Below, in pieces: positions 13,127-30,981 of a stretch of 64,000 nt of DNA; positions within the stretch are counted from its first letter, which is position 1, and the number at the start of each line of letters is the position of its first letter. A program made the position numbers and the translations under genes. The DNA is from Chthoniobacter flavus (lineage in GTDB: Bacteria; Verrucomicrobiota; Verrucomicrobiia; Chthoniobacterales; Chthoniobacteraceae), in contig CAMAUX010000014.1 of assembly GCA_945861435.1 (NCBI GenBank), positions 1-64,000 of the forward strand. The letters are read 5' to 3'. The notes under the pieces are model-generated. The model was given only the letters and a program-made list of their open reading frames with translations, ran no database searches and was not told where the DNA came from.

Positions 13127-13159
13127 TGGCCGTTATTTTATAAAAATCACCCCTGATAT

Positions 13160-13513
13160 ATGTCACATAATCGTCGTCGCAGTGGAAATCATGTCGGGCT
13201 GAAGCCGGTTGCGATCATTTTCGGGATCATGCTCTTTTTGGGGATTGCGGGGGTGAACTACCTTGGGATCAAAAGAAAGAATCACGAGGCGGGCGAGCAG
13301 ATCACGCGCATGGAGCGTGAGTTGGCGGAGTTGGAGACGCAGGATGCGGCGTTGCGGGCGAAGATCAACCAGCTTTCCTCGCGCAACAGCCTTCAGAAGA
13401 AGCTCGACGAGGGGATGGTGAGTCTGGTGCCGATCAAGGACCTTCAGTTTGTGCGTGTGGAGGGGAGTGGAGAGGGGCTGCGGCCGGTTTCCAACAAGAG
13501 GACTGCTGAGTGA
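13160..13513 (+). CDS. ftsL: FtsL-like divisome protein
   Basis: 117-aa bitopic protein: a short basic N-terminus, one transmembrane helix (about residues 15-36, VAIIFGIMLFLGIAGVNYLG), then a heptad-rich coiled coil (ITRMERELAELETQDAALRAKI). Size, topology and position between rsmH and ftsI are exactly those of FtsL, which pairs with FtsB and FtsQ to activate FtsW-FtsI. FtsL is poorly conserved, so the call rests on topology and synteny. An AT-rich stretch (13131-13165) precedes the start and might hold an internal promoter. Its TGA overlaps the GTG start of ftsI (GTGA). Confidence 0.75.
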   Translation: MSHNRRRSGNHVGLKPVAIIFGIMLFLGIAGVNYLGIKRKNHEAGEQITRMERELAELETQDAALRAKINQLSSRNSLQKKLDEGMVSLVPIKDLQFVRVEGSGEGLRPVSNKRTAE

Positions 13514-15297: not shown

Positions 15298-15298
15298 C

Positions 15299-16774
15299 AT
15301 GCAGCTCAAGACCCTTCTTTCCAGTGCGGCGGTGACGAGTGTGGACGGCGCCCAGGAGCGCGACATCACCTCGCTTGCGTATGACTCTCGCCGGGTGCAG
15401 CCCGGGGGGCTTTTTTTTGCGCTGAAGGGTGAGAAGGTGGACGGCGCCCAGTATGTGGCTCAGGCGGTGGAGCGCGGGGCGGAGGCGGTGGTCAGTGAGC
15501 AAGGGCAGTTGAGGGCGCGTGCCACGAACGTGGTGGTGCCTGATGCGCGTGCGGCGATGGCCGACATGGCCGCGAGTTTCTACCGGCATCCTTCGCGGCA
15601 GTTGAAGGTGGCGGGTGTGACGGGCACCAACGGCAAGACCACGACGGCGTTCCTCATCAAGCATCTCTGCGACGAGGCGCTGCGACGCTGCGGGCTCATC
15701 GGGACGGTGCGCTACGAGGTGGGTGATCGGATCCTGCCTGCCACGCGTACGACGCCCGAGTCTCTGGATGTGCAGGACCTGCTCTGGCAGATGTACTCGG
15801 CCGGGTGCAAGACGGCGGCCATGGAGGTTTCCTCCCATGCGCTCAGCCAGGGTCGGGTGCGCGGGGTGGAGTTCGACTTGGGCGTTTTCACCAACCTCAC
15901 CCAGGACCACCTCGACTACCACGGGAGCATGGACGAGTACTTCGAGGCCAAGGTGCGGCTGTTCACTCAGATCGCTGCGCAGGAACACAAGAAGGGGCGT
16001 GCGGTGGTGAACCTCGACGACCGCTTCGGAAACATCTTGGCGAGCCGCCTCCGGGGCGAGTTGCCTTTGATCACTTACGGGCTCGGTGTGCACGCTGACT
16101 TTCGCGCGAGCAACGTGCGCACGGATTTTCAGGGTACCAGCTACCAACTCGACGCGCTTGGACGCAGCTATCTGGTGCGTCTGCCCCTCATCGGCACCTT
16201 CAACGTGTACAACTCGCTTGCGGCCATTGCGGCGGCGCAGGCGATGGGTGCCGATGTGCGTTCATCCGTGCTCGCCCTCGCCAAGGCGCGCACGGTCCCC
16301 GGCCGCCTTGAGAGCGTCACCGGACAGCGCCAGTTCCGGGTGTTCGTGGATTATGCGCACACGGACGATGCGCTGTTCAACGTGATCCGCGCCTGCCGCG
16401 AGTTGCAGCCTGGCCGGATCATCGTTGTCTTCGGCTGCGGTGGGGACCGGGACCGTGCGAAGCGTCCGTTGATGGGCGCGGTGGTGGACCAGTATGCGGA
16501 CCACGCGATTGTCACCTCCGACAACCCGCGCAGTGAGGATCCGCAGGCCATCATGGCGGACATCACTGCGGGAATGCGGCGCGGGCGGCATGAGGTGATT
16601 GCGGATCGGCGCGAGGCGATTTTCAAGGCGATCGCGATGGCGCAGCCGCGCGACATTGTGCTGATCGCGGGCAAGGGCCATGAGAACTACCAGCAGGTGG
16701 GCGACACGGCGCTGCCCTTTGATGACGTGCTCGTGGCGAAGAGTGCCTTGGAGGGCAAGCACGTGGAGTTATAA
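15299..16774 (+). CDS. murE: UDP-MurNAc-tripeptide synthetase (meso-DAP ligase)
   Basis: Adds the third residue to the peptidoglycan stem (491 aa). The P-loop TGTNGKTTTAF lies near residue 110, with TTPESLD, HALSQGRV, the carbamylated-lysine neighbourhood FTNLTQDHLDYHG, and the acceptor-specificity motif SDNPRSEDP near residue 408. DNPR is diagnostic for enzymes that use meso-diaminopimelate, so this organism should have a DAP-type wall. One base after ftsI and two bases before murF. Confidence 0.96.
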   Translation: MQLKTLLSSAAVTSVDGAQERDITSLAYDSRRVQPGGLFFALKGEKVDGAQYVAQAVERGAEAVVSEQGQLRARATNVVVPDARAAMADMAASFYRHPSRQLKVAGVTGTNGKTTTAFLIKHLCDEALRRCGLIGTVRYEVGDRILPATRTTPESLDVQDLLWQMYSAGCKTAAMEVSSHALSQGRVRGVEFDLGVFTNLTQDHLDYHGSMDEYFEAKVRLFTQIAAQEHKKGRAVVNLDDRFGNILASRLRGELPLITYGLGVHADFRASNVRTDFQGTSYQLDALGRSYLVRLPLIGTFNVYNSLAAIAAAQAMGADVRSSVLALAKARTVPGRLESVTGQRQFRVFVDYAHTDDALFNVIRACRELQPGRIIVVFGCGGDRDRAKRPLMGAVVDQYADHAIVTSDNPRSEDPQAIMADITAGMRRGRHEVIADRREAIFKAIAMAQPRDIVLIAGKGHENYQQVGDTALPFDDVLVAKSALEGKHVEL

Positions 16775-16776
16775 GC

Positions 16777-18144
16777 ATGGACGCCACCTCCCTCCTCCAA
16801 CTCAGCCAGTGGGCCGGTGCGCGACTGTGCGCGGGCTTGCCGGAAGCTCTCGTGGAGGGGGTCTGCACCGATTCGCGATCCCTGCGTCCGGGGCAGCTTT
16901 TTGTCGCGTTGCGCGGCGAGCATTTCGACGGGCACGGGTTTGTGGAGTCGGCCGCTGCGCTGGGGGCCGCGGGGGCGCTTGTCGAGCAGGTGGCGCCGGG
17001 GCTGCCTGTGCAATTTGGGGTGCTGCAGGTGGAGGACACGCTGGCGGCGCTGCAGCGCATGGCCGGCGCGCACCGGGCCAGTCTGCCGATGCGGGTGGTG
17101 GCGGTGACGGGGAGCAACGGAAAGACGAGCACCAAGGATCTTGCTGCAGCCGTGCTCTCCGAGCGTTTTCAGGTTTGCCGTACGCAGGGGAACCTCAACA
17201 ACCACATCGGACTTCCGCTTTCGCTTTTGCGGGCCGGGAGCGGCGACGGCGCTGGTGTTTTTGAAATAGGGATGAACCATCCCGGGGAGATTGCGCCGCT
17301 GGCTGCGTTGGCCGCTCCGGACGTGGCGATCATTACTGGCATTGGTACGGCGCACATCGAGTTCATGGGAAGTCGGGAAGCGATCGCGAAGGAGAAGGGG
17401 ATGCTGGCAGAGGCACTCCGGCCAGCAGGCACGGTGATCCTGAGCGCTGAGGATGAGTTCTCGAGTGGGATTGCCGGGCGCACCGGTGCGACTGCGGTGT
17501 ACTGCGGCATCGGCTGCGGTGATTTTCAGGCGCGGGACCTGCGGCAGGATCTTGGGGGGAGCCGGTTCGTGATTCGTGCGTTGGGGCGGGAGGTGGAAGC
17601 CGCGGTGCCTGTGAGTGGTGTGCACATGGTGCGCAATGCTTTGATGGCGGTCGCGGCGGGATCCGTGCTCGGCTTGAGCCTTGAGCAGTGCGTTGCGGGG
17701 CTGGCGCGTTTGGAACTCACGAAGGGGCGGCTTGAGCGCAAGGGTGCACGGGGCATCGAGGTGCTCGATGACACGTACAACGCGAATCCGGACTCCGTGG
17801 CGGCAGCCCTGCATACGCTTGCGGCACTGCCGACCGTTGGGCGTCGGGTGGCGGTGCTCGGGCGCATGGGGGAACTGGGGTCGCATTCCGCGCAGGGGCA
17901 CAGCAGTGTGGGGCTTGTGGCGGCGGAGTTGGGGTTGGATCTTCTATTGGGTGTGGGCGAGGAACCCGCATTGGCTGTGGAGGCGGCGAGGGCTGGTGGG
18001 ATGACGGGTGCCTTGCATGCGGCGACGGTGGAGGAGGCGGTGAGCGTGCTTCGTCACCGTGTGGTTGCGGGCGATCTTGTGCTCGTGAAGGGCAGTCGCT
18101 CAGCGAGGATGGAACGTGTCGTGGAGGGACTTCTGGCGCCATGA
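16777..18144 (+). CDS. murF: UDP-MurNAc-tripeptide:D-Ala-D-Ala ligase
   Basis: Final cytoplasmic amino-acid ligation in peptidoglycan synthesis (455 aa). The P-loop is VTGSNGKTSTKDL, followed by TQGNLNNHIGLPLSLL, GMNHPGEI, TGIGTAHIEFMGS and LDDTYNANPDSV, all typical of MurF. The stop codon overlaps the mraY start (ATGATG). Position directly after murE and before mraY is the standard dcw order. Confidence 0.96.
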   Translation: MDATSLLQLSQWAGARLCAGLPEALVEGVCTDSRSLRPGQLFVALRGEHFDGHGFVESAAALGAAGALVEQVAPGLPVQFGVLQVEDTLAALQRMAGAHRASLPMRVVAVTGSNGKTSTKDLAAAVLSERFQVCRTQGNLNNHIGLPLSLLRAGSGDGAGVFEIGMNHPGEIAPLAALAAPDVAIITGIGTAHIEFMGSREAIAKEKGMLAEALRPAGTVILSAEDEFSSGIAGRTGATAVYCGIGCGDFQARDLRQDLGGSRFVIRALGREVEAAVPVSGVHMVRNALMAVAAGSVLGLSLEQCVAGLARLELTKGRLERKGARGIEVLDDTYNANPDSVAAALHTLAALPTVGRRVAVLGRMGELGSHSAQGHSSVGLVAAELGLDLLLGVGEEPALAVEAARAGGMTGALHAATVEEAVSVLRHRVVAGDLVLVKGSRSARMERVVEGLLAP

Positions 18145-19274
18145 TGTACTACCTGCACAGCCTGAGTATTGGCGCCGGGTCCGAGTTCTGGAGGGCCTTC
18201 AACGTGTTTCAGTACATCAGTTTCCGCGCTGTGGCGGCGGCGCTGACGGCCTTCCTTCTTTCGCTGCTGCTTGGTGGGCGGGTGATCCGGCGCTTGATCT
18301 CGTTGAAGCTGGGGCAGCCGATCCGCACCGCTGAAGAAGTGCACAAGCTTTCGGAGTTGCATGGAGGCAAGGCGGGAACGCCGACCATGGGGGGCGTGCT
18401 GATCCTTGGCACGGTGCTGGTTGCCAGTCTTCTGTGGGCACGGCCGGACAATTCAGTGGTGTGGCTGCTGCTCTTCGCGCTGACGGCCTGCGGTTTGCTG
18501 GGGTTCTGGGACGACTATCTGAAGGTGAGCAAGAAGAACGCGGCCGGCATCAGCGAACGTACGAAGTTGGTGGGGCAGGCGGCGGTGGCGTTGGTGGTGG
18601 CGGGCTTTTTCCTGACGAACCCGGCGTTGCAGGTGCAGGCCCGGGCTTTGTATGTGCCCTTTATGAAGGGGCCGCTGCTGATCAACATGGGTTGGGGGGC
18701 GGCGGGCTTCTTTGCTCTGGTGATCATTGGTTCCTCGAATGCGGTGAACCTCACCGACGGGCTGGATGGTCTGGCGGCGGGTTGCACGATTACCACAGCG
18801 CTTGCTTACTCGGTGCTCACCTATGTGGCTGGCAACGAGAAGATCGCCCAGTACCTGCAGCTTCCGTACTATGACTTCGCGGGCGAGTTGAGTGTGGTGT
18901 GCATGGCCTTGGTGGGCGCGTCTTTCGGTTTTCTATGGTTCAACTGCCATCCCGCGAAGGTCTTCATGGGCGACACGGGCTCGCTGGCCATCGGCGGTTT
19001 CTTCGGAGTGGTGGCGATCTGCTGCAAGCAGGAGCTGCTGCTCGTGGTGGTGGGCGGTGTGTTCGTGCTGGAGGCCTTGTCCGTGCTGATCCAGCGCTCC
19101 TGGTTTAAGTTCACCCGGAAAATGTACGGCGAGGGACGGCGCGTCTTTCTGATGTCCCCCATCCATCACCATTTCGAACTCAAGGGCTGGAAGGAGAACA
19201 CGGTGATCGTCCGTTTTTGGATCCTTTCGGTGATGTGCGCGCTCCTCGGTCTTGCGACTCTTAAGCTGCGTTGA
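18141..19274 (+). CDS. mraY: Phospho-MurNAc-pentapeptide transferase
   Basis: Integral membrane enzyme (377 aa, about ten transmembrane helices) that transfers phospho-MurNAc-pentapeptide to undecaprenyl phosphate, making lipid I. Motifs: GKAGTPTMGG near residue 76, FWDDYLKV with the Mg-binding Asp pair, NAVNLTDGLDGLAAG, VFMGDTGSLAIGG and MSPIHHHFELKGW with the histidine cluster. It overlaps murF by 4 bases. Confidence 0.97.
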   Translation: MMYYLHSLSIGAGSEFWRAFNVFQYISFRAVAAALTAFLLSLLLGGRVIRRLISLKLGQPIRTAEEVHKLSELHGGKAGTPTMGGVLILGTVLVASLLWARPDNSVVWLLLFALTACGLLGFWDDYLKVSKKNAAGISERTKLVGQAAVALVVAGFFLTNPALQVQARALYVPFMKGPLLINMGWGAAGFFALVIIGSSNAVNLTDGLDGLAAGCTITTALAYSVLTYVAGNEKIAQYLQLPYYDFAGELSVVCMALVGASFGFLWFNCHPAKVFMGDTGSLAIGGFFGVVAICCKQELLLVVVGGVFVLEALSVLIQRSWFKFTRKMYGEGRRVFLMSPIHHHFELKGWKENTVIVRFWILSVMCALLGLATLKLR

Positions 19275-19276
19275 AG

Positions 19277-20623
19277 ATGACTTACACGGGAAAATCCATT
19301 GCAGTGCTGGGGGCGGGCGAGAGCGGTCAGTCCGCTGCCCGTCTCTTGCGCCGTCTCGGTGCCGAGGTGACTGTCCACGATGGCGCGTCAGCGGATCAAC
19401 TTGATGCCGTGTGTTCTGCGCTTGCGGTGGATGGCATCCGGCTGCTCGCGGGTCCGGAGGCCGGGAGTCCAGGGGAGACATGCGACATGGCGGTGTTGAG
19501 TCCTGGGATCGATCCGGCGGTGGAACTCGTTCAGGGGTTTGTCCGCAGGGGCATCCCTTTGCTGGGTGAGCTTGAGCTTGCGGTACGCGAGTGCTGCTGC
19601 CCGGTGGTGGCGATCACGGGCACCAATGGCAAGACGACGACCACTCAGCTCGTGGAGCGGATGTTCACTGAGTGCGGGGTGCGCACGGTGGCGGCGGGCA
19701 ATATCGGGCCGGCGTTTTCCGGGCGGGTGGGGGAGAGTGGGAAGCTCGACGTGATGACGCTGGAGGTGAGTTCCTTTCAGCTTGAGGCTGTGGAGACCTT
19801 TCGTCCCCGCATTGCGGTGTGGCTGGGCTTTGCGGCGGACCATCTGGATCGGTACGCCACGATGGAGGAATACTTCGCAGCCAAGCTGCGCGTTTTTGAA
19901 CGGCAGACGGAGGAGGACTGGGCGGTGGTCAACCTGCGCACGGCTCTGCCCGCCTTGAAGGCACGCACGCTGCGTTTCAGCGCGTACGAGGCTGGCGGCG
20001 ATTTTGAGCTGCGCGATGGGTGCATTCATTTTCGTGGGGAGCCGCTGCTGCGGATGGCGGACACCCAACTGCGCGGCCTTCACAATGTGGAGAATCTGAT
20101 GGCTGCACTTGGTGTGGCAGCGGCGTGGGGTCTCGACCTCGGTGCCGCGGCCCGGAGCCTGTGCGACTACCGCGCTCTTCCTCACCGCTGCGAGCCGGTG
20201 CGCACTGTGGATGGAGTGGAGTGGGTCAACGATTCGAAGGGCACCAATCCGGACTCTGTGGAGAAGGCGCTTCTCTCTGAGACGCGGCGGGTGGTTCTGA
20301 TTGCGGGGGGTAAGGACAAGGGTTTTGAGTACGATGCGCTCACGGACTTGGTGGCTGAGCGCTGTCGTGCGGCGGTGGTTTTGGGGGAGATGGCCGGTCG
20401 CATTGAAGCGCTTTGGGGGGCACGGCTGCCCTGTCACAACGCGGGGCGGTCCCTGGAGAGGGCGGTGACGCTGGCGCAGAGCAGTGCGCTGCCCGGCGAC
20501 GTGGTTTTGTTCAGCCCCGGGACGTCCTCCTTTGACATGTTCAAGAATTACGCCGACCGCGGGAACCAGTTCCGTGCGTTGGTTCAAGCCCTCCCCACAC
20601 TCCACCCACTCCACACATCCTGA
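19277..20623 (+). CDS. murD: UDP-MurNAc-L-Ala:D-Glu ligase
   Basis: Adds D-glutamate to the stem peptide (448 aa). N-terminal nucleotide-fold motif SIAVLGAGESGQSAARLL, P-loop ITGTNGKTTTTQLVE, LEVSSFQLEAV, DHLDRYATMEEYFAAK, and the C-terminal VEWVNDSKGTNPDSV and LFSPGTSSFDMF. The ATG at 19277 lies two bases past the mraY stop; a TTG at 19271 overlaps that stop and is an alternative start two residues longer. Confidence 0.95.
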   Translation: MTYTGKSIAVLGAGESGQSAARLLRRLGAEVTVHDGASADQLDAVCSALAVDGIRLLAGPEAGSPGETCDMAVLSPGIDPAVELVQGFVRRGIPLLGELELAVRECCCPVVAITGTNGKTTTTQLVERMFTECGVRTVAAGNIGPAFSGRVGESGKLDVMTLEVSSFQLEAVETFRPRIAVWLGFAADHLDRYATMEEYFAAKLRVFERQTEEDWAVVNLRTALPALKARTLRFSAYEAGGDFELRDGCIHFRGEPLLRMADTQLRGLHNVENLMAALGVAAAWGLDLGAAARSLCDYRALPHRCEPVRTVDGVEWVNDSKGTNPDSVEKALLSETRRVVLIAGGKDKGFEYDALTDLVAERCRAAVVLGEMAGRIEALWGARLPCHNAGRSLERAVTLAQSSALPGDVVLFSPGTSSFDMFKNYADRGNQFRALVQALPTLHPLHTS

Positions 20624-20631
20624 CGCCACCC

Positions 20632-21441
20632 ATGAAAGCACCCAAACTCAGCCAAGTAACCCGCTTCCTGAAACTGCCCCAGAAGAAGCGCCTCAACGCT
20701 GCCACCGCGCTGCGACGTGGCGCGCAGGTCGAGGAGTTTGATGAGGAGCCGCAAACCAACCTTGCAGGTGCGTTCATCGTGGTGCTGGTTCTGCACGCGG
20801 TCGCCGTGGTGGGGATCTGGATGTTTAACAGCATTAACGGCAAGCGGGGCGCTTCGGAGGCCGAGGCTGCGGCCTCAGCAAAGGGTGCGAAGCCCGCGGC
20901 GACGGCCTCCGCAAAGGCGGTGCCGCCTGCTGCTTCCTCCTCCAAGCCTGCATCGTCGGAAGCGCATCCCGTTGCGGGAGCGCCGGTGGCGGGTTCCGCC
21001 CCAGTTGCGCCGGTGGTGGCGCCCATTTCTGGTGCGCGGCTCCATCACGTGAAGACGGGGGACAGTTTGGCGAAGGTGGCGGCGCAGTACGGGGTGAGCG
21101 TTGAGGAGATCGAGGAGGCGAACGGTGCCAAGAATGTGACGATCCTCAGGCCCGGCCAGACGCTGAACATTCCGAGGTCGCGGAGTGCAGCGGTAAAGAA
21201 AGAGGAGGCTTCGAAGGTGGCGGCGGCAAAGAAGGAGGAGGCTCCGAAGGTGACGGCGATCAGCAAGACGGCGCCGGTGGCGGGTAGCGGGGGAAAGACG
21301 TACACGGTAGCCAAGGGCGACAATCCCGTGGCGATCGCCCGGCGTCTTGGAGTGAATTACAATGAGATGCTCAAGCTCAACGGGATCGACGACCCGAAGA
21401 AGCTCCGGCCCGGGCAGGTGTTGAAGATCCCTGCCAAGTGA
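20632..21441 (+). CDS. Membrane-anchored protein with two LysM domains
   Basis: 269-aa bitopic protein: a cytoplasmic N-terminus of about 45 residues, one transmembrane helix (about 46-64, GAFIVVLVLHAVAVVGIWMF), an Ala/Pro/Lys linker, then two LysM peptidoglycan-binding domains. LysM 1 is at about 138-182 (HHVKTGDSLAKVAAQYGVS, then LRPGQTLNIPRS) and LysM 2 at about 222-269 (YTVAKGDNPVAIARRLGVN, then LRPGQVLKIPAK). LysM binds GlcNAc-rich glycan. Lying between murD and ftsW, it is probably a division or septal-wall protein of the inner membrane. This is not a standard dcw member in E. coli. Confidence 0.85.
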   Translation: MKAPKLSQVTRFLKLPQKKRLNAATALRRGAQVEEFDEEPQTNLAGAFIVVLVLHAVAVVGIWMFNSINGKRGASEAEAAASAKGAKPAATASAKAVPPAASSSKPASSEAHPVAGAPVAGSAPVAPVVAPISGARLHHVKTGDSLAKVAAQYGVSVEEIEEANGAKNVTILRPGQTLNIPRSRSAAVKKEEASKVAAAKKEEAPKVTAISKTAPVAGSGGKTYTVAKGDNPVAIARRLGVNYNEMLKLNGIDDPKKLRPGQVLKIPAK

Positions 21442-21469
21442 GAGGCTGCTGATTCCGGAGGCAAAGTTC

Positions 21470-22621
21470 ATGCATCGCAAGAGTGTCTATGTGTTGCTGG
21501 CGGCGGTGGCGGTCCTGATCGTCACGGGCTTCGTCATGTTGTGCAGCACGGGGGCGTTTGCCCAAGACAGCCACGGAAACCCGACCTTCTTTATTCGTCG
21601 GCAGGGCTTCTGGCTGGCGGTGGGGTTGGGGCTGTGCTGGCTGGGAGCGGTTCTGGACTATCATTTTTGGGAGAGGACGTGGACGTGGTGGTTTGGTTTG
21701 TCGATGGTGCTGCTGCTGCTGTGTTTTGTGCCGCCGATCGGACAGCGCATCAATGGGTCGGCGCGTTGGGTGAACTTTGTGGTGGTGTCTTTCCAGCCCT
21801 CGGAGTTGGCGAAGCTGGCGGCGGTGACTGGCATGGCGTGGTGGTTTTCGCGGCAGACGATTTGCGCTTCCAAGTTTACGCATGGCTTCCTGATTCCCTG
21901 CGCAGGCACGGGGATGCTGGTGTGTTTGATTGCGCTGGAGGTGGACATGGGGACGAGCGCGCTCATCACATCGACCATGTTCTCGATGATGTTTGTGGCG
22001 GGAGCCTCTGTGTTCTATGTGGTGGGTCCCCTTGTCGGGGGGCTCGCGGGCATGATCTTCGTCGCCATGCATCTGCCTGAGCGTCTGGGCCGGCTCATGG
22101 CGTTTATGGATCTTGAGCGTTACCGCGAAGGGGCCGGGCTGCAGCAGTACCAAGCGCTGGTGGCATTCGGATCCGGCGGCGTGAGCGGGATGGGGCTGGG
22201 CAACGGAAGGCAGAAGATGGCGTACCTGCCCTTTGCGCACACGGACTTCATTTTTCCGATGATCGGGGAGGAGTTGGGGCTGCGCTGCACGCTGCTGGTG
22301 GTGCTGTGCTATCTGCTCTTCATTCTTTGTGGGTCGGTGATCGCGACGCGCGCGAGGGACCGATTTGGGATGCTTCTGGCGACGGGCATTGTGGTGCTGA
22401 TCGCGCTGCAGGCGGCGCTCAACATTGGAGTGACGACGGCGGTGCTGCCCAACAAGGGGCTTCCCCTGCCGTTCATCAGCTACGGGGGCTCCAACCTTGC
22501 GCTCTGCCTGCTCTGCGTCGGCATTCTCATCAATATTTACCGGCAGGGCCTTGATGAGAACGTGGCGCCGGAGGGCGTCCGGCTCTGGGCCCGCACGCGG
22601 CCGGGGCGCAGTCCGTTCTAG
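21470..22621 (+). CDS. ftsW: Septal peptidoglycan glycosyltransferase FtsW
   Basis: 383-aa SEDS-family polytopic membrane protein that polymerises lipid II with FtsI as partner. Motifs: INGSARWVNF, FQPSELAKLA, the essential loop region GSGGVSGMGLGNGRQKMAYL with HTDFIFPMIGEELG, and KGLPLPFISYGGSNL near the C-terminus. About nine to ten transmembrane helices. A GGAGG ribosome site lies 8 bases before the ATG. Distinguished from RodA by dcw context. Confidence 0.94.
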   Translation: MHRKSVYVLLAAVAVLIVTGFVMLCSTGAFAQDSHGNPTFFIRRQGFWLAVGLGLCWLGAVLDYHFWERTWTWWFGLSMVLLLLCFVPPIGQRINGSARWVNFVVVSFQPSELAKLAAVTGMAWWFSRQTICASKFTHGFLIPCAGTGMLVCLIALEVDMGTSALITSTMFSMMFVAGASVFYVVGPLVGGLAGMIFVAMHLPERLGRLMAFMDLERYREGAGLQQYQALVAFGSGGVSGMGLGNGRQKMAYLPFAHTDFIFPMIGEELGLRCTLLVVLCYLLFILCGSVIATRARDRFGMLLATGIVVLIALQAALNIGVTTAVLPNKGLPLPFISYGGSNLALCLLCVGILINIYRQGLDENVAPEGVRLWARTRPGRSPF

Positions 22622-22640
22622 ACCATCTCCGAAATCGCGC

Positions 22641-23768
22641 ATGAACATCGTGATCGCCGCAGGAGGAACAGGAGGTCATCTCTTCCCGGGACTAGCCGTG
22701 GGAGAGGTGCTCCGTGCGCGCGGGCATGCGGTGATGGTGCTCATCTCGGAGAAGGAGATCGATGCGCTGGCCACGCGCGGGCGTTCGGAGTTCCGCTTTG
22801 AGAAGATTCCTGGCGTGGGGCTTCCGAAGCTGTTTTCACCTGCGATCTTTAAGTTCCTGCGCGGGTTCCGAGCCGGGTTGCGCCAGTGCCGCGCGTTGTA
22901 TGCGGACTTCAAGCCCGACGCTGTCCTTGGGATGGGAGGATTCACCTCGACCGGGCCCATTCTTGCGGGGCGTCGGCTGCGAGTGCCGACCTTTGTCCAC
23001 GAGTCCAATGCGATTCCTGGGAAGGCCAACAGACTCAACGCGCGCATGGCGGGTGGCGTGCTCGTGGGTTTTGAGGAATGCGCCCGCCACTTTCCCGGCG
23101 CGCGTTGCATCACGACAGGCACGCCTGTGCGCTCCTCGCTGCGGACGCGCATGGCAAGGGTGGCTGCGGCAGCCGCATTCGGCTTGGATCCGGAGCGCAA
23201 GACGCTGCTCGTGATGGGGGGGAGTCAGGGCGCGCAGGGGATCAACCGGGCGGTGCTCGAGTCGCTTCCGGCGCTTGCGGGGGCGGGGCTCCAGGTGGTG
23301 CATCTCGCCGGCCGCGAGGGTGAGGAGAGCGCGCGCGCCGCCTATGCAGCGGCTGGTGTTCCCGCGTTTGTTGCGGCCTTCCACCATCGCATGGAAGAGG
23401 CTTACAGCGCTGCGGACATCTGCGTGGCCCGCAGTGGTGCGGCCAGCTTGACGGAACTGGCCCACTTCGCACTCCCCGGCGTGTTGATTCCGTACCCGCA
23501 TGCGGCGGAAGATCATCAGACGCACAACGCGCGGATTTTTGAATCTGCGGGTGCCGCCCTGCTTCTTCCGGAGGCGGGTCTGGTTGGGGGAGGGTTGGCT
23601 GCGCACCTGCTGGCGCTTGTTCGCAGTCCAAAGAAGCTGGCTGCGATGTCTGAGCGGAGCGCCTCGCTGGCGAGTCCGGATGCGGCGGAGGCGGTGGCGG
23701 ACATTCTTTTGGAAGCTTGTTCCGGTGCTCATGCAGGAGTGGGGGGAAGGGGGTCTTATGCAAGATAG
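22641..23768 (+). CDS. murG: Lipid II synthase (GlcNAc transferase) MurG
   Basis: Peripheral membrane glycosyltransferase (375 aa) that adds GlcNAc to lipid I. The start at 22641 begins with the canonical MNIVIAAGGTGGHLFPGLA; the frame upstream overlaps ftsW and is not protein-like. Other motifs: ADFKPDAVLGMGGF, VHESNAIPGKANR, VMGGSQGAQGINRAV, and the UDP-GlcNAc site ICVARSGAASLTELAHF with PYPHAAEDHQTHNA. The last 11 bases overlap murCB. Confidence 0.96.
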   Translation: MNIVIAAGGTGGHLFPGLAVGEVLRARGHAVMVLISEKEIDALATRGRSEFRFEKIPGVGLPKLFSPAIFKFLRGFRAGLRQCRALYADFKPDAVLGMGGFTSTGPILAGRRLRVPTFVHESNAIPGKANRLNARMAGGVLVGFEECARHFPGARCITTGTPVRSSLRTRMARVAAAAAFGLDPERKTLLVMGGSQGAQGINRAVLESLPALAGAGLQVVHLAGREGEESARAAYAAAGVPAFVAAFHHRMEEAYSAADICVARSGAASLTELAHFALPGVLIPYPHAAEDHQTHNARIFESAGAALLLPEAGLVGGGLAAHLLALVRSPKKLAAMSERSASLASPDAAEAVADILLEACSGAHAGVGGRGSYAR

Positions 23769-26052
23769 GCTTGTGGAGATGCTGGTGCGCGGGGGCGCGC
23801 GGGTTCACTTGATCGGGGTGGCGGGTTCGGGGATGAGCGGCATTGCCGCGCTGTTGCTGGCGCTGGGGCACCATGTGAGCGGATCGGACAAGGTGAGCAC
23901 GGTGGAGATCCAGCGCCTGCAGAAGCTTGGGCTGGCGTTTCATTCCCCGGCGGATCCTGCGGCGGTGACGCCGGCGGAGTTGGTGATTTATTCCTCGGCA
24001 ATCAAGCCCGGGCATCCGGACTTCGAGGCGGCGCGGGTGCAGGGGAAGCTGTTGGTGAGGCGCGCGGATGCGTTGGCGGCGTTGTTGGGATGCAAGCGGG
24101 GCATTGTGGTGGCGGGCATGCATGGGAAGACCACCACTTCGGCGATGAGCGCGCATTTGCTGCGGTGCGGCGGGCTGCATCCGTCGCATTATGTGGGAGC
24201 CGAGATCCCGATCCTCGGTACGAATGCGCATTGGGACCCGGCGGGTGAGTATCTGGTGGCGGAGGGGGACGAGAGCGACGGCACGCTGGCGCTTTACCGT
24301 CCTGAGCACGCGGTGATTCTGAATGTGGAGGAGGAGCACCTCGACCACTACCGGGATCTTGCTGCGATCGAGGCCGTCTTCAACCAGTTGCTTGCGCAGA
24401 CGACTGGCAAGGTTTTCTACTGCGCTGACGACCCGCATGCGGCACGTCTGTGCGCGGCGCATCCGGGGGCGGTCTCGTATGGGGAGTCGGCGGGTGCTGA
24501 TTACCGCTTCGAAGCTGTCCGGGCGCAGGATTTTCAGACCTCCTTCCGGGTGCTGCGCGGCGGGGTGGAGATGGGGGATATTACGCTCAACGTGCCCGGG
24601 CGACACAACGTGAGCAACGCGGTTGCTGCGCTTGCGTTGGCGACGGAGCTTGGGGTGCCTTTCGATCGTGTGGTGGCGGCGTTGGAGAGTTTCCGCGGAG
24701 CGCGCCGGCGCTTTGAGATCAAGTATCGGAGCGATCAGTATCTGCTGGTGGATGATTACGGGCATCACCCGACCGAGGTGAGGGCGACGCTGGCGACTGC
24801 GCGCGGGACGGGGCGGCGGCGTGTCACGGTGCTCTTCCAGCCGCATCGTTACACGCGCACCCAAGCGCTGCGCCGCGAATTCGGGCGGGCCTTTTCGGAT
24901 GCTGACACGGTGCTGGTGGCTGATGTGTACGCGGCCAGCGAGCCGCCGATTCCCGGGGTGAGCGGACAGACGATTGTGGACGAGGTGGTTGCCGCCGGAC
25001 ATCGCGCGGCCTCTTACGAAACCGATCTGCGACGGCTCACACTCGAGGCTGGGCGTGGGCTTCAGCCCGGCGACTGCGTGGTAAGCCTTGGTGCGGGCAA
25101 TATTCACGAGGCACTCACCCATCTGGCGCGCGACGTGGCATTCATGGAGGAATTGCAGGCCGTGATGGGGCCCGGTTGCATCCGCCTCTACGAGTCTCTC
25201 GCCAAGCACACCACGATGCGCATCGGCGGGCCCGCGCAGTTCTGGGCGGAGCCGGAGACCGAGGAGGGATTCGCGCGGTTGGTGCGTTTCTGCACTGAGC
25301 GCGCGGTGCCGCTGTTTGTGATGGGGCGCGGGTCCAATCTGCTTGTGCGCGATGGGGGGATTGCCGGTGTCGTGGTGCGGCTTGTTCGTGGAGAATTCGC
25401 GCGGATCAAGGTGGAGGGCGAAACGATCACGGCTGGTGTGGGGGTGAAGCTCAAGGAACTGGCCTATGCAGCCCGCGAGGCGCGTCTGGGGGGGTTCGAG
25501 TGGATGGAGGGGATTCCAGGGAACCTCGGCGGCGGGCTGCGCATGAATGCGGGGGCGATGGGTGTGGAGACCTTTGACCAGGTGGTGCGTGTGCGTTTTG
25601 TGGACGTGCATGGCGAGTTTCACACGGCGGTGCCTTGCGAGCTGGACGTGCATTACCGCCACGCGGCGCGCTTGGAGCGCAACTACGCGGTGTCCGCGAT
25701 CCTGCACGGGCCGGCCGGGGACGCTGCCCGGATCGAGGAGTTGCTGCAGGCTTCGCAGAACAAGCGCCGCAGCAGCCAGCCGCGTGAGTCCAGTGCGGGC
25801 TGCATTTTCAAGAACCCGGCAGCCATTCCTGCAGGCAGGTTGGTGGACGAGCTCGGTCTCAAGGGGGCGCGTGTGGGGGCGGCCCGGGTTTCTGAGATTC
25901 ACGGGAACTTCATCGTCAACGAGGGTGGGGCATCGGCGGCGGACGTGCTCAGCCTCATCGAGCAGGTGCGCGACAAGGCGCTGCGTGAGCGCGGGATCGC
26001 GCTGGAGACGGAGGTGCAGATCGTCGGCCAGGAGGAGTCTTTCCATGCGTGA
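23758..26052 (+). CDS. murC: MurC-MurB fusion: UDP-MurNAc:L-Ala ligase / UDP-GlcNAc-enolpyruvate reductase
   Basis: A single 764-aa chain carries two enzymes in reverse pathway order. The N-terminal MurC (about residues 1-460) has LIGVAGSGMSGIA, P-loop VVAGMHGKTTTSA, NVEEEHLDHY and the C-terminal domain DDYGHHPTEV. The C-terminal MurB (about 470-764) has TTMRIGGPA, the FAD-binding GRGSNLLVRDGGIAG, GIPGNLGGGLRMNAGA, and SAGCIFKNP with Cys682 where the proton-donor Ser is usually found. MurB makes UDP-MurNAc, the substrate of MurC, so the fusion could channel it. The ATG at 23758 overlaps murG and has a strong GGGGGAAGGGGG site. MurB/MurC fusions are known from Verrucomicrobium, which supports the phylum call. 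Confidence 0.95.
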   Translation: MQDRLVEMLVRGGARVHLIGVAGSGMSGIAALLLALGHHVSGSDKVSTVEIQRLQKLGLAFHSPADPAAVTPAELVIYSSAIKPGHPDFEAARVQGKLLVRRADALAALLGCKRGIVVAGMHGKTTTSAMSAHLLRCGGLHPSHYVGAEIPILGTNAHWDPAGEYLVAEGDESDGTLALYRPEHAVILNVEEEHLDHYRDLAAIEAVFNQLLAQTTGKVFYCADDPHAARLCAAHPGAVSYGESAGADYRFEAVRAQDFQTSFRVLRGGVEMGDITLNVPGRHNVSNAVAALALATELGVPFDRVVAALESFRGARRRFEIKYRSDQYLLVDDYGHHPTEVRATLATARGTGRRRVTVLFQPHRYTRTQALRREFGRAFSDADTVLVADVYAASEPPIPGVSGQTIVDEVVAAGHRAASYETDLRRLTLEAGRGLQPGDCVVSLGAGNIHEALTHLARDVAFMEELQAVMGPGCIRLYESLAKHTTMRIGGPAQFWAEPETEEGFARLVRFCTERAVPLFVMGRGSNLLVRDGGIAGVVVRLVRGEFARIKVEGETITAGVGVKLKELAYAAREARLGGFEWMEGIPGNLGGGLRMNAGAMGVETFDQVVRVRFVDVHGEFHTAVPCELDVHYRHAARLERNYAVSAILHGPAGDAARIEELLQASQNKRRSSQPRESSAGCIFKNPAAIPAGRLVDELGLKGARVGAARVSEIHGNFIVNEGGASAADVLSLIEQVRDKALRERGIALETEVQIVGQEESFHA

Positions 26053-26971
26053 AATGAACCAGAGACACATCGCCGTCCTGATGGGCGGGCCGGGATCGGA
26101 GCGGCAGGTATCGCTCAAGAGTGGCGAAGGGGTGACGCAGGCCCTGCGCGAACTCGGTGCTCACGTGACGCCGGTCGTGGTGGACGGGCCGGACTTTGTG
26201 CTTCCTGAAGGTGTCGATGTGGCCTTCAACGCGATCCACGGGACCTTTGGCGAGGATGGGCAGCTTCAGCGGTTGCTCGATGCGCGTGGGGTGGCGTACA
26301 CGGGCGAGGGGGTGGCGGGCAGCGAGTTGGCGATCGACAAGATCGCGACCAAGCGGCGGCTGCTTGAGCATGGGGTGCCGACTGCGCCCTTCGAGGTGTT
26401 GCGGGGTGGTGCCGCGCCGTCGATGCCGCTGCCCTATGTGTTGAAGGCGCCGCGCGAGGGTTCCAGCGTGGGCATCTATATTGTGCGAGAAGCGGCTGAG
26501 GTGGCTTCCAGCCTTGATCGCGCGCGTCAGCACGGGGAGGAAATCCTTGTGGAGAAATTCATCGCGGGGCGCGAGTTGACGGTGGGGATCGTGGGCGAAG
26601 AGTCCCTTCCGGTGATCGAGATCATCCCGCGGCAGGACTTTTATAATTTCGAGAACAAGTACCCGTTCCTGAATCCGAAGGCGGCCGGAGCCGACCACGT
26701 GTGCCCTGCGCAGCTTTCTGAGAAAGTGGCGGAGTTGGTGCGAGGGATCGCCATGGCAGCGCATCGCGCGCTGAGTCTGCGGGTTTACTCCCGCGTGGAC
26801 CTGCTTCTCACGAGGGAGGACGAGCCGTTTGTGCTCGAGATCAACACGATCCCCGGAATGACACCCTCCAGCCTGCTGCCCGAGGCGGCGGCTGCCATGG
26901 GAATGGGATATGCGGCCCTCTGCGCCCGAATCATCGAACTCTCGCTCCTTCGCCGACATCACCAACCATGA
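26045..26971 (+). CDS. ddl: D-alanine:D-alanine ligase
   Basis: ATP-grasp enzyme making the D-Ala-D-Ala dipeptide used by MurF (308 aa). Motifs: HIAVLMGGPGSERQVSLKSG, NAIHGTFGEDGQLQ, YVLKAPREGSSVGIY, IPRQDFYNFENKY and LEINTIPGMTPSSLLPEAA. The ATG at 26045 overlaps the murCB stop by 8 bases; an ATG at 26054 is a close alternative. Its stop overlaps the ftsQ start (ATGA). Ddl directly before ftsQ is normal dcw order. Confidence 0.96.
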   Translation: MREMNQRHIAVLMGGPGSERQVSLKSGEGVTQALRELGAHVTPVVVDGPDFVLPEGVDVAFNAIHGTFGEDGQLQRLLDARGVAYTGEGVAGSELAIDKIATKRRLLEHGVPTAPFEVLRGGAAPSMPLPYVLKAPREGSSVGIYIVREAAEVASSLDRARQHGEEILVEKFIAGRELTVGIVGEESLPVIEIIPRQDFYNFENKYPFLNPKAAGADHVCPAQLSEKVAELVRGIAMAAHRALSLRVYSRVDLLLTREDEPFVLEINTIPGMTPSSLLPEAAAAMGMGYAALCARIIELSLLRRHHQP

Positions 26972-28356
26972 AATCCAGCCGCAACCAGCGTGTGTCATCG
27001 CGCAGCCGCCGTCCACAGCACCTCCTTGAGGTGAGTGTGCGACAGGACCTTGCACAGGCCCAGCGCAACCGGGCGCTTTTCCTGCTCTGCTGCAAGCTGC
27101 TGCTTGCGGCCATGGTGCTGGCCGGTGGGTACGTGGGCGGAAGGAAGGCTTATCTCCGGTTTTTCCTGGAGAATCCCGACCTCTTTCTCAACGAGATCCG
27201 TGTGTCGACCAATGGGGCCCTGACACGCGAGCAGATCATCCAGACGGTGGGGTTGGTCGAGGGGCGCAACATCTTCACGTTCGACCTTGGCGAGGCCAAG
27301 AAGTCGCTTCGGGAACTGCCTCAGGTCGAGGACGTCCTCGTGCAGCGGCATCTTCCGCATCGGATCACCATTGATGTGAGCGAAAGGCGGCCGGTGGCTT
27401 GGTTGTGCGCGACCGCGGAGGAGGATCCCGCCACCTCGACAACCGCCTGCCTCATCGATGCGCGGGGCATCGCCATCCGGACATGGACGATTTTGCCCGA
27501 GTACCTGCATTTGCCGATCATCTGCGGCGTGAACCTTGAGAATGTGGCGCCGGGTCAGCGTGTTCCGGACCTTGATGTGCAGGCTGCGCTCGAGCTTGTG
27601 CGTCTCACCTTCCAGAGTACGCGCTACGACGTGCGCACGATCGACATTTCCAAGCACTACTGCCTGGTGGTGACCGATCGCACCCGAGTGAAAGTCACCT
27701 TTGGTCTCGACCGTATTGCCGACCAGCTTGCCCGACTCAACCTTCTGCTTGATCACCTTGAGCCCTCCCGGCGCGAGATCCAGACCGTGAATCTTCTGCT
27801 GGAGCGCAACCTCGCCGTTACTTTTGCGAGCAAGGCACCCGCACAGTCCCCGGCGCCTGTGGCGTCCACGGAACCGGGGGCGTCCGCGGCGGGTGGCGGG
27901 TCCGCAGCCGCAAAGCTTCAAGCATCCAACGCAGCCGCAAAGTCTCAGGCGCCCAACGCAGGAGCGAAGTCTCAGACGCCCAACGCAGCGACGAAATCTC
28001 AGGTATCGAACGTGGGGGTGAAGTCCCAGACATCCAAGGAAGCCCCTCCGCTCAAGACGGCGAAGGCCAAGCCTTCCACGCCTTCCACCGGCCAGTCGGG
28101 CATGGTGCAGGCGAGGTTGATGCAGACTCCAGTGCCCGCAGCTCCGGCTGCTGTGACGCCGGATTCGGTGCGGCGTTTCTTCAGCACACCCAGTCCGTCT
28201 TCCGACGTCGTGCCTGTGTCTGGCGACGGTCTTTCGAGGGCGTCCAGTGCGGCGCCGGTGTCGAAGCCCCCCTCAGCGTCCACTCCGGGCCCCGCGCAAG
28301 CGAAGGTGCGAGCTGCAACGCCAACGCCTCTTACCAAAAACCCCTTTCGTCCCTAA
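26968..28356 (+). CDS. ftsQ: FtsQ-like divisome protein with long C-terminal extension
   Basis: 462-aa bitopic protein. Basic cytoplasmic N-terminus, one transmembrane helix (about residues 37-57), POTRA domain (about 72-150: FLNEIRVSTNGALTREQI to ITIDVSERRPVAWL) and the beta domain (to about 290). FtsQ recruits FtsB and FtsL to the septum. Usual FtsQ is about 250-290 aa; here a 170-residue Ala/Pro/Ser/Lys-rich tail follows, including five 9-residue repeats of the form (A/T/V)KSQxxNxx. The tail would lie in the periplasm and could span or bind peptidoglycan. It overlaps ddl by 4 bases; ftsA follows after 6. Confidence 0.85.
   Translation: MKSSRNQRVSSRSRRPQHLLEVSVRQDLAQAQRNRALFLLCCKLLLAAMVLAGGYVGGRKAYLRFFLENPDLFLNEIRVSTNGALTREQIIQTVGLVEGRNIFTFDLGEAKKSLRELPQVEDVLVQRHLPHRITIDVSERRPVAWLCATAEEDPATSTTACLIDARGIAIRTWTILPEYLHLPIICGVNLENVAPGQRVPDLDVQAALELVRLTFQSTRYDVRTIDISKHYCLVVTDRTRVKVTFGLDRIADQLARLNLLLDHLEPSRREIQTVNLLLERNLAVTFASKAPAQSPAPVASTEPGASAAGGGSAAAKLQASNAAAKSQAPNAGAKSQTPNAATKSQVSNVGVKSQTSKEAPPLKTAKAKPSTPSTGQSGMVQARLMQTPVPAAPAAVTPDSVRRFFSTPSPSSDVVPVSGDGLSRASSAAPVSKPPSASTPGPAQAKVRAATPTPLTKNPFRP
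27910..28044 (+). repeat. 27-bp tandem repeat, five copies, in the ftsQ tail
   Basis: Five consecutive 27-bp units start at 27910, 27937, 27964, 27991 and 28018. Each encodes nine residues: AKLQASNAA, AKSQAPNAG, AKSQTPNAA, TKSQVSNVG, VKSQTSKEA. The reading frame is kept throughout and the copies are diverged at both DNA and protein level, so the array is not a very recent expansion. Confidence 0.85.
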
Positions 28357-28362
28357 ATCCTC

Positions 28363-29571
28363 ATGGCCAGAGAAGACATCCTCGTTGGGCTGGAGATTGG
28401 AACCAGCAAGGTTTGCGCCGTGGTCGCGGAGGCAAGACGCGACTCCACGATGAAGATCCTCGGGGTCGGCGTGGCCCAATCCTGCGGTGTGCGAAAGGGG
28501 GAGATTGTGGACTTTGACACTGCTGGAAAGTGCGTGCGCGAGGCGCTTGCGGACGCCGAGGAGAAGAGCGATGTGGAGATTCACCAAGTTTTCCTCTCGG
28601 TCACGGGATCGCACATCAAGAGCTTCAACAAGCGCGGGGCGATCGACATTTCGCCTGATCAGGAGGAGATCCGGTATGCGGATCTCGAGGAGGTGCGCAC
28701 GGTGGCCGGGGAGGTGAGTCTGCCCCAAGCCAACACCTTCGTGCACACGCTTCTCCAGCACTACTACATCGACGGCCAGGATGGCGTGCTCAACCCGGAG
28801 GGGATGATGGGAAGCAAGCTGGAGGCCGATTACCACATCGTCCATGGCGTCCGCACACGGATTCAGAACAACATCCGGTGCGTGCGCGAGCTCAACATTG
28901 GCGTGGACGATGTGGTGTTCGCGCCCGTGGCTGCGGCGGAGGTGATCATTGACCCGTCGCAGCGCGAATTGGGTGGTCTGGTCATTGATCTCGGTGGCGG
29001 CACCACGGGGTATTCGGTTTTCACCGAGGGCGCGATCAAGCGTAGCGGCTGCATTGCGGTGGGTGGCGACCATGTGACCAACGACATTTCGCTTGGTCTT
29101 CGCCTGCCCATGGCCAGAGCCGAGCGGCTGAAGGTGGAGGAGGGCGGGGTCCTGTTCGACGGGTCCGAGGACGTGCCGTACATCACCCTCAAGGACGAGG
29201 CGGGATTCGTCGGTTGTGAAGTGGAGCGCGAGCATCTCAACAACATCATTTACTGCCGTTTGCGGGAGACATTCGAGCTCGTGAAGCGCGACTTGGATGA
29301 GGGCAGGATCCTTTCCTACCTCGGTGCGGGCGTCATGCTTACTGGTGGTGGTTCGCTGATCAGGGGCATCGACCAGCTTGCATCGGAGGTCTTCGGGTTG
29401 CCCGTGCGCCTGACCCGTCCCGAGACGGTGAGCGGCATCACATCGCACTTTGAGGATCCCACGCTTTCCACGGCCATTGGCGTGACCAAGTACGCGCAAT
29501 CCGTGCACGCCCCGAAGCAGGAGGGCTGGCTCAAGTCGACCCTGCGGCGGTTCAAAAGCTTCGGCGGCTAA
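28363..29571 (+). CDS. ftsA: Cell division protein FtsA
   Basis: Actin-like ATPase that tethers FtsZ to the membrane (402 aa). Motifs: ILVGLEIGTSKVCAVVAE (phosphate 1), a SHS2-like 1C domain (SVTGSHIKSFNKRGAI), VIDLGGGTTGYSVF (phosphate 2), GAGVMLTGGGSLIRGI (adenosine) and a C-terminal amphipathic helix GWLKSTLRRFKSF that serves as the membrane-targeting sequence. Normal in length. Six bases after ftsQ and 33 before ftsZ. Confidence 0.96.
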   Translation: MAREDILVGLEIGTSKVCAVVAEARRDSTMKILGVGVAQSCGVRKGEIVDFDTAGKCVREALADAEEKSDVEIHQVFLSVTGSHIKSFNKRGAIDISPDQEEIRYADLEEVRTVAGEVSLPQANTFVHTLLQHYYIDGQDGVLNPEGMMGSKLEADYHIVHGVRTRIQNNIRCVRELNIGVDDVVFAPVAAAEVIIDPSQRELGGLVIDLGGGTTGYSVFTEGAIKRSGCIAVGGDHVTNDISLGLRLPMARAERLKVEEGGVLFDGSEDVPYITLKDEAGFVGCEVEREHLNNIIYCRLRETFELVKRDLDEGRILSYLGAGVMLTGGGSLIRGIDQLASEVFGLPVRLTRPETVSGITSHFEDPTLSTAIGVTKYAQSVHAPKQEGWLKSTLRRFKSFGG

Positions 29572-29604: not shown

Positions 29605-30981
29605 ATGATCCCACTGCCCCGCCTGCAAAGCGCCGAGACCGGCGAGTTTCTCATCAAAGTTGTCGGACTTGGGGGGGCGGGATGCAACGTCCTCGACCGA
29701 CTCCATCGCGATGGCCAGGGGCCATGGGAGCTTGTGGCGGTGAACACCGACTCGCAGGCGCTCGCCGTTTCTGCGGCTCCGGTGAAGATTCAGGCTGGCA
29801 GCGGGGTGACTCGCGGGCTTGGGGCAGGAGGTGATCCGGAGATGGGTGCCCAAGCCGCGCAGGAATCGGTGGAAGACCTTCGTCAGGCGCTTGAGGGTGC
29901 GGCTGCGGTTTTTCTCTGTGTGGGACTCGGAGGTGGCACGGGTTCGGGAGCCGCGCCGCTGCTTGCTTCGCTGGCGGGTGAGCGGGAGGCGTTGGTGGTG
30001 GTGTTTGCGACGATGCCCTTTGGTTTTGAGGGCCGCCGCAGGCAGGCTCAGGCTGAGGAGGCGTTGGAGGCGCTGCGACAGTCCGCCGATGTGGTGGTGT
30101 GTTTTGAGAACGACCGCATGGCCTCGCTCGTGGAGCCTCAGAGCGCTGTGCAGGAGGCCTTCGCAGCGGTCGATCAGACGGTGAGCCAGAGTCTGCGTGC
30201 CGTTGTGACGCTCCTTCACCGTCGCGGTCTCGTTCACGCGGGGCTCGACGAACTCACCACCGTGCTGCGCAGCAGGGATGCCCGCTGCCTCTTTGGTTAC
30301 GGTGAGGCCGCTGGCGACAACCGGGCCCACGACGCGCTCGAACTCGCCCTCAAGTGTCCGTTACTCGGAGGCGGCGACGCGCTCTCTCAGTCGGCCAGTG
30401 TGCTCATCAGTGTCGCTGGTGGAACGGGTCTGAGGCTCGACGAGGTCCAGACGTTGATGGGGGAATTCAACCGCCACGTCAGCCAGGACACGCAGGTGCT
30501 TTTCGGCGCGGCTGTGGATCCCACGATGGGGGAGAGTCTGTCCGTCACGATCCTCAGCAGTACGGAGATCGCCGCACCGCTGCCTGTCCGCTCATCGGTC
30601 GCCGCCGAGGTGCGCCGGCCTGCCGTGCCTCTCCAGCGGACCGCGCGAGTGAGCACGCCGCGCCCGGCTTCCCCTCCTCGCGAAGAGGTTTCCGAATCTG
30701 AAGAGTCAGAAACGAGTGTCGCTGCTGTGGGGGGGACGGATCTTCCGGTTCGGTCCCCGGATGCCGTGGTGTCGGAGGCGCCGGCACCGAGGCCTCGTCC
30801 GGACGCGCGAATGGGGCGCAGGCCTGGAACGGAGATGGCGGGTGGGCGGCGCGAGGCGCGTCAGGAGCAGATGCAGTTTGAGCCTGCGAGCAGGGGGCGT
30901 TTCGACAAGAGCGAACCGACGATCGTGGATGGCGAGGACCTCGATGTGCCCGCGTTTCTGCGTCGGACCCCGCGGCGCTGA
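29605..30981 (+). CDS. ftsZ: FtsZ, divergent, with altered T7 catalytic loop
   Basis: Tubulin-like division GTPase (458 aa), last gene of the dcw cluster. The GTP-binding side is recognisable: GLGGAGCNVLDRL (21-33), VAVNTDSQAL, RGLGAGGDPEMG, and the tubulin signature as GLGGGTGSGAAP (107-118; Ser replaces the usual Thr). The T7 loop is changed: where E. coli has Asn207, Asp209 and Asp212, an ungapped alignment gives His211, Gly213 and Glu216 (GLVHAGLDELTTVL). These residues complete the GTPase site of the neighbouring subunit, so hydrolysis may be slow or use Asp215. The C-terminal linker is long (about 130 residues), and the conserved tail is kept as LDVPAFLRR, so FtsA binding should remain. 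Confidence 0.93.
   Translation: MIPLPRLQSAETGEFLIKVVGLGGAGCNVLDRLHRDGQGPWELVAVNTDSQALAVSAAPVKIQAGSGVTRGLGAGGDPEMGAQAAQESVEDLRQALEGAAAVFLCVGLGGGTGSGAAPLLASLAGEREALVVVFATMPFGFEGRRRQAQAEEALEALRQSADVVVCFENDRMASLVEPQSAVQEAFAAVDQTVSQSLRAVVTLLHRRGLVHAGLDELTTVLRSRDARCLFGYGEAAGDNRAHDALELALKCPLLGGGDALSQSASVLISVAGGTGLRLDEVQTLMGEFNRHVSQDTQVLFGAAVDPTMGESLSVTILSSTEIAAPLPVRSSVAAEVRRPAVPLQRTARVSTPRPASPPREEVSESEESETSVAAVGGTDLPVRSPDAVVSEAPAPRPRPDARMGRRPGTEMAGGRREARQEQMQFEPASRGRFDKSEPTIVDGEDLDVPAFLRRTPRR

Follow-up and report, generated by a model that had tools for sequence, protein, structure and literature searches.

A remodelled T7 loop in the single FtsZ of a Chthoniobacter genome and the retention of T7 acids across Verrucomicrobiota

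In Staphylococcus aureus FtsZ, whose residue numbers are those of Escherichia coli plus one, the T7 residue Asn208 coordinates K+ and touches the Mg2+ shell, Asp210 swings and places the catalytic water, and Asp213 helps to hold this water (PMC8936486). The partner subunit supplies Asn44, Asp46, Gln48, Gly72 and the arginine-finger-like Arg143, and residues of this nucleotide-binding face matter for hydrolysis or assembly (PMC8936486). Conservation across species is described for the T7 asparagine and both aspartates, and the substitutions N208L, D210N and D213N each abolish the assembly of S. aureus FtsZ (PMC8936486). In E. coli, D212A retains about 7% of the GTPase activity (PMC8142252). Z-ring condensation in Bacillus subtilis requires treadmilling; when D213A is present beside the wild type, the rings are thicker and the cells still constrict (PMC8079713), so some division is possible with a slowed FtsZ.

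The FtsZ proteins of Verrucomicrobiota rank among the most divergent (PMC9871819), with acceleration in Methylacidiphilum (PMC2474590); Planctomycetota and Chlamydiota, the sister groups, have no FtsZ (PMC12283558). In Verrucomicrobium spinosum, ftsZ is essential, and its product was called one of the most divergent homologues because of a C-terminal extension (PMC12283558). The same protein had been published as 'canonical', with eight unusual positions marked in a figure; T7 is not discussed in its text (PMC1845146). Dividing cells of the cultured isolate Chthoniobacter flavus Ellin428 are shown in PMC5147048 (Figure 2).

The ftsZ gene and its genome context

The window, which is the whole stretch of 64,000 nucleotides analysed here, carries one ftsZ gene (Table 1). 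Both Pfam domains of its product scored above the cut-off (143 bits for the Tubulin/FtsZ GTPase domain and 62 bits for FtsZ_C), and the GGGTG[ST]G signature is present as GGGTGSG. TIGR00065, the NCBI FtsZ equivalog, gave 263 bits, which is below its curated cut-off of 295.2 bits; this cut-off was reached in only 35 of the 189 genomes of the window's class. The protein is a divergent orthologue, an FtsZ in the broad sense and not a TIGR00065 equivalog. Its AlphaFold model has the ordinary FtsZ fold, with pLDDT mostly about 90 or more in the core and lower confidence in T7 (69-71). A structure search with this model listed 50 PDB matches, all of them FtsZ (TM 0.79-0.89 by target length), and the TM-score against B. 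subtilis FtsZ 2vxy was 0.87 by target. The protein is therefore like canonical FtsZ (E. coli, B. subtilis and S. aureus) in its fold, its GTPase and FtsZ_C domains, its T2-T4 loops, the arginine at position 142, its C-terminal FtsA-binding peptide and its dcw position, and unlike it in the TIGR00065 score and in T7.

Table 1. Features of the ftsZ locus, with positions in the window.
Feature	Position	Strand	Source or remark
ftsZ ORF, 458 aa	29605..30981	+	ATG start, no internal stop; sole FtsZ/tubulin homologue found in genome
Tubulin/FtsZ GTPase domain (PF00091), residues 17-175	29653..30129	+	Pfam
T2 loop and start of H2: N47, D49, Q51 (S. aureus N44, D46, Q48; Mg2+ shell, K+ lock), kept	29743..29757	+	alignment; roles from PMC8936486
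T4 tubulin signature GGGTGSG, residues 109-115, kept	29929..29949	+	
Arg146 (S. aureus R143, arginine-finger-like)	30040..30042	+	invariant in 48/48 core relatives
T7 (synergy) loop with the beginning of helix H8, residues 208-221, GLVHAGLDELTTVL	30226..30267	+	
His211, aligned with Asn207 (the Asn that coordinates K+ in S. aureus FtsZ)	30235..30237	+	
Gly213 at the place of catalytic Asp209	30241..30243	+	
Gained Asp215 at the Ala211 position, with Glu216 at that of Asp212	30247..30252	+	sole remaining T7 carboxylates
FtsZ_C domain (PF12327)	30289..30555	+	Pfam
C-terminal motif RGRFDKSEPTIVDGEDLDVPAFLRRT, FtsA-binding core LDVPAFLR and phylum-wide extension	30892..30969	+	
ftsA	28363..29571	+	Pfam
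ftsQ (POTRA_1)	26968..28356	+	Pfam
Remaining dcw genes (mraZ to ddl)	11664..26971	+	Pfam

The ftsZ gene lies directly 3' of ftsQ-ftsA in a dcw cluster that is intact by Pfam, with the order mraZ, mraW, ftsI, murE, murF, mraY, murD, a gene for a LysM protein, ftsW, murG, murC-murB, ddl, ftsQ, ftsA and ftsZ. The MurC-MurB fusion is a single ORF of 850 aa (window 23500-26052), like that of V. spinosum (PMC12283558). No other member of the tubulin/FtsZ superfamily was found in the genome, which is 96% complete (about 4% may be missing). The first-pass annotation had described a single copy in a normal dcw setting, with the nucleotide-binding half and the FtsA-binding tail intact. Copy number and setting were borne out, with no canonical copy found elsewhere in the genome, and so was the tail, which carries LDVPAFLR, a match to LD[IV]P[AT]FLR. 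Because of the single copy, the dcw setting, the intact nucleotide-binding half (see below) and the intact tail, the protein is probably the working divisome protein, as had been proposed. ZapA, MinC and SepF were not found in this genome with Pfam models, which leaves FtsA as the only known membrane partner of FtsZ seen there.

The T7 loop and the opposite face of the active site

In an ungapped alignment, the T7 loop of E. coli, GLMNVDFADVRTVM (taken from the MG1655 genome record as PGLMNVDFADVRTVM), corresponds to GLVHAGLDELTTVL in the window FtsZ, with the changes N207H, D209G, A211D and D212E. The window loop has the pattern H-x-G-x-D-E, and the canonical N-x-D-x-x-D is absent. Three methods gave the same register, namely phmmer with B. 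subtilis FtsZ, L-INS-i, and hmmalign on a canonical-FtsZ profile; none of them chose a gapped alignment that sets Asp215 on Asp209. The residues His211, Gly213, Asp215 and Glu216 were likewise confirmed. The earlier claim that Asn, Asp and Asp are all lost stood for the asparagine and the first aspartate; the last aspartate is now glutamate, and one aspartate has been gained alongside. Since this third change is from Asp to Glu, an acid is retained at the Asp212 position and the change is conservative. The T7 loop of alpha-tubulin also has Glu at this position, and it differs from the window FtsZ in retaining the Asn and the first Asp.

Misalignment, a sequencing error or a second canonical FtsZ could in principle produce such a picture. 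Nothing was found for this explanation, and it is highly improbable. L-INS-i and hmmalign had zero disagreements in the T7 register over 194 of 194 sequences, the loop is common to independent assemblies, and no second FtsZ was found. The change is neither a sequencing error nor chance, because the loop type x-G-x-D-D/E also occurs in several families of the order. We consider the artefact refuted, unless a canonical ftsZ lies in the part of the genome, roughly 4%, that the assembly may lack.

On the opposite face, N47, D49, Q51, G75 and R146 of the window FtsZ align with S. aureus N44, D46, Q48, G72 and R143. All five are present, and the description of the nucleotide-binding half as intact was upheld. 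Among the 48 core relatives of the order, N47 is kept in 46, D49 in 47, Q51 in 43, and both G75 (the T3 Gly) and R146 in all. As judged by alignment, the change in the active site is confined to the T7 face. No clear pattern coupling Asn207 with its K+-sharing partner Gln47 was seen in the phylum alignment.

Our best explanation, to which we assign a probability of about 0.58, is that the window protein is an orthologous working divisome FtsZ whose T7 face is down to one or two shifted carboxylates and which is probably a slow GTPase. The T7 face would have been remodelled in an ancestor common to the order and two further families (f15 and f34). The nucleotide-binding 'bottom' face would be unchanged, binding GTP-Mg2+ and giving the transition-state-stabilising arginine, while the incoming 'top' subunit would no longer provide Asn207 and Asp209. 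Glu216, aided by the gained Asp215, may position the attacking water. Asp215 is a plausible substitute catalytic residue, as position 211 is Asp in 41 of the 48 core relatives. His211, which is Arg, His or Lys in most relatives, may replace the K+-binding Asn, perhaps by its positive charge. The filament would then still hydrolyse GTP, at a rate probably below that of E. coli FtsZ and with turnover to match. The untouched Arg and Mg2+ loops, together with the avoidance of double acid loss described below, suggest that hydrolysis is still selected.

A separate GAP-like protein that completes the active site or speeds hydrolysis would also account for the lost top-face residues, with nothing direct in its favour. 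In the FtsZ proteins studied, it is the next subunit that closes the interface, and no GAP-like candidate gene was seen in the dcw cluster; we therefore regard such a factor as improbable.

T7 loops across the order and the phylum

FtsZ sequences were collected from 206 Verrucomicrobiota genomes, and the 194 that aligned well, from 83 families, were tabulated; conservation outside the phylum was taken from the literature, E. coli and PDB alignments. The loop type x-G-x-D-D/E is common to relatives from several families of the order in independent assemblies, mostly as GLIRIGFDDL or GLxHxGFDEI in order genomes and named records. The FtsZ of cultured C. flavus Ellin428 (L056) has the loop GLVHIGFDEIVTAL. 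This protein and the rest of the order share the loop type and the C-terminal motif with the window FtsZ; they differ from it at position 207, which is R, H, Q, P, S, A or K, and in having either Asp or Glu as the 212 acid. In the 48 core relatives, position 209 is Gly in 44, 211 is Asp in 41 and 212 is Asp or Glu in 47. Gly209, present in 44 of 48, is well conserved; its column entropy ranks at the 22nd percentile within the core. Position 207 is variable and usually basic (R in 19, H in 16, then Q, P, S and others). By these counts, 207 is free and the rest of the new loop is conserved in dozens of genera. One genome of the window's own genus (G088, L137) has GLIHAGFAQV, in which positions 209, 211 and 212 are all without an acid.

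In a tree built without the T7 columns, the window FtsZ falls within a well-supported group (97) of 69 sequences made up of the order, f15 and f34, and the 209 acid is absent in all rows listed for this group. As far as these loops tell, the T7 change is common to the order and the two families and not special to the window protein, a point that the first-pass annotation missed. By our own inference, f15 is probably Akkermansiaceae, f34 Verrucomicrobiaceae, f20 Methylacidiphilaceae and f24 Opitutales. V. spinosum belongs to the same phylum, and all six sequences of f34 (family identity by inference) have [R/K]-x-G in the loop. Four of the six f34 genomes also have weaker tubulin-like matches, as in Prosthecobacter. 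An assignment of the V. spinosum T7 loop from f34 was rejected, as its two long FtsZ frames do not exactly match the published 673 aa. The public MAG record CAMAUI010000050.1 (L060), titled Prosthecobacter debontii, has an FtsZ of the window's family (f1), and its title is probably wrong.

This natural history bears on the idea that FtsZ is under relaxed selection and drifting to loss, with T7 changes that have no functional meaning. Such drift would fit the divergence of verrucomicrobial FtsZ (PMC9871819), its acceleration in Methylacidiphilum (PMC2474590) and the lack of FtsZ in Planctomycetota and Chlamydiota (PMC12283558). However, the new loop is conserved with only 207 free, almost all genomes surveyed have one intact ftsZ, and the gene is essential in V. 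spinosum. We see little chance that drift alone explains the loop.

Aligning the T7 loops of the 194 sequences showed that most of the phylum is altered in the same loop. N-x-D-x-x-D is kept in only 26. The 209 acid is absent and the 212 acid kept in 97, the reverse holds for 51, both acids are kept in 42, and both are absent in 4. Other verrucomicrobial families, overlooked in the first reading, thus lack different residues of the same triad in this alignment. For example, f24 (L073-L101) shows the opposite variant, mostly NLDFATL, in which Asn207 and Asp209 are kept and Asp212 has become Thr, Ala or Gly among the sequences listed.

Counted by family, 1.9 were observed to lack both acids, versus about 10.5 in permutations, which give the number expected if the losses were independent. 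Because the families are related, the losses were also tested on the tree, where the minimum number of changes is 15 at 209, 22 at 212 and 19 at 207. The Pagel test of 209 against 212 acid loss gave LR 23.6 (p 9e-5), with the second acid lost about 2.5-4 times more slowly after the first was gone. An independent-pairs test pointed in the same direction and was not significant (4.4 opposite versus 0.8 same, median p 0.22). A 'keep one acid' rule across the phylum is supported by these alignments, not proven. Two further couplings were rejected as recurrent events. A compensatory shift from Asp209 to Asp211 appeared in family counts (12.7 versus 6.4) and was not significant on the tree (LR 5.2, p 0.27), because it is mostly one old event. 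A basic residue at 207 with loss of 209 was weakly coupled (10.8 versus 6.8 by family, permutation fraction 0.02), and independent pairs gave no signal.

No prior report of verrucomicrobial T7 loss was found in the literature searched, which excluded most subscription papers and leaves priority uncertain. In the papers covered, neither the T7 rewiring nor the 'keep one acid' pattern seems to have been described; the divergence, acceleration and essentiality of verrucomicrobial FtsZ were already known.

The C-terminal motif and the need for GTP hydrolysis

The tail motif G-x-F-[ED]-K-x-E-P-T-x-x-x-G-[EQ]-[DN]-L-D-x-P-T-[FY]-x-R is found in almost all complete sequences of the phylum, and E. coli FtsZ has only its last part, LDIPAFLR. 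The LDxPTFxR core is present in 194 of the 206 sequences, and most of the others are stretches that end before the C-terminus. Across the phylum, conservation is higher in this motif than in the catalytic loop, and the motif is intact even in f20, whose T7 is unrecognisable. This would be expected if FtsZ were a GTPase-dead or nearly dead scaffold, which binds GTP and polymerises with negligible hydrolysis, mainly offers FtsA and the septal synthases a platform, and turns over via subunit exchange or other factors. The residual 7% activity of E. coli D212A (PMC8142252), the lack of T7 acids in G088, and the failure to find ZapA, MinC and SepF in the window's genome, which fits an altered control of filament dynamics, point the same way. 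On the other hand, the conserved equivalents of Arg142 and Asp45, together with the rarity of losing both acids, suggest that hydrolysis is still selected, and B. subtilis requires treadmilling for Z-ring condensation (PMC8079713). A scaffold of this kind is a serious alternative, although an unlikely one.

The slow-GTPase reading is favoured by the single copy, the intact dcw cluster, the conserved loop, the conserved Arg142 and Asp45 equivalents and the 209/212 avoidance. The ordinary FtsZ fold, the essentiality of ftsZ in V. spinosum and the dividing cultured C. flavus with GLVHIGFDEIVTAL were counted as further support. Counted against it were G088, the p of 0.27 for 209/211 coupling on the tree and the non-significant independent pairs for 209/212. 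In addition, N208L, D210N and D213N abolish assembly in S. aureus (PMC8936486), and the same substitutions would therefore be harmful elsewhere. These mutants and the T7 chimeras 3wgk and 3wgl are engineered changes of the same loop, whereas the T7 change of the window FtsZ is natural and fixed.

Asp209 or Asp212 has been dropped many times and hardly ever both. A broader 'either acid will do' rule might follow, under which a divisome can live with one T7 carboxylate, and fast GTP hydrolysis (treadmilling) became dispensable in this branch of PVC, whose sister groups Planctomycetota and Chlamydiota lost FtsZ altogether. We offer this rule tentatively, as a possibility with clearly less than an even chance. 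Single T7 substitutions abolish assembly in S. aureus (PMC8936486) or most of the GTPase activity in E. coli (PMC8142252). A phylum with the triad in so few sampled FtsZ is a natural mutagenesis experiment. Its cultured species allow us to ask what level of GTP hydrolysis and treadmilling is required by a divisome, and whether FtsZ catalysis was relaxed before FtsZ was lost in Planctomycetota and Chlamydiota; the FtsZ of G088 would serve well as a natural test case for a GTPase-dead form. These loops raise doubt about how fixed the FtsZ catalytic machinery is, and they caution against annotating FtsZ activity by analogy.

Several side observations concern more degraded proteins. In f20 (L245-L250, L252, L253 and L255; mostly single-contig genomes of 2.2-2.5 Mb), FtsZ is so degraded that T7 could not be aligned, and no other FtsZ was found in these genomes. 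The tail motif of about 30 residues, GxF(E/D)KSEPTxxxGEDLDxPTFxR, is far longer than the E. coli tail and is kept even where the catalytic loop is lost. In f13 (L129-L131) and f2 (L114-L115), both the tubulin signature (GGETGSF, GGDFGST, GGGTSGR and GGGTAGA) and T7 are damaged, so nucleotide binding itself may be altered there. Compared with E. coli, FtsZ and FtsA are 41% and 31% identical in f14, where the triad is kept, and 25% and 30% identical in f30. By these identities, FtsZ has lost ground relative to FtsA.
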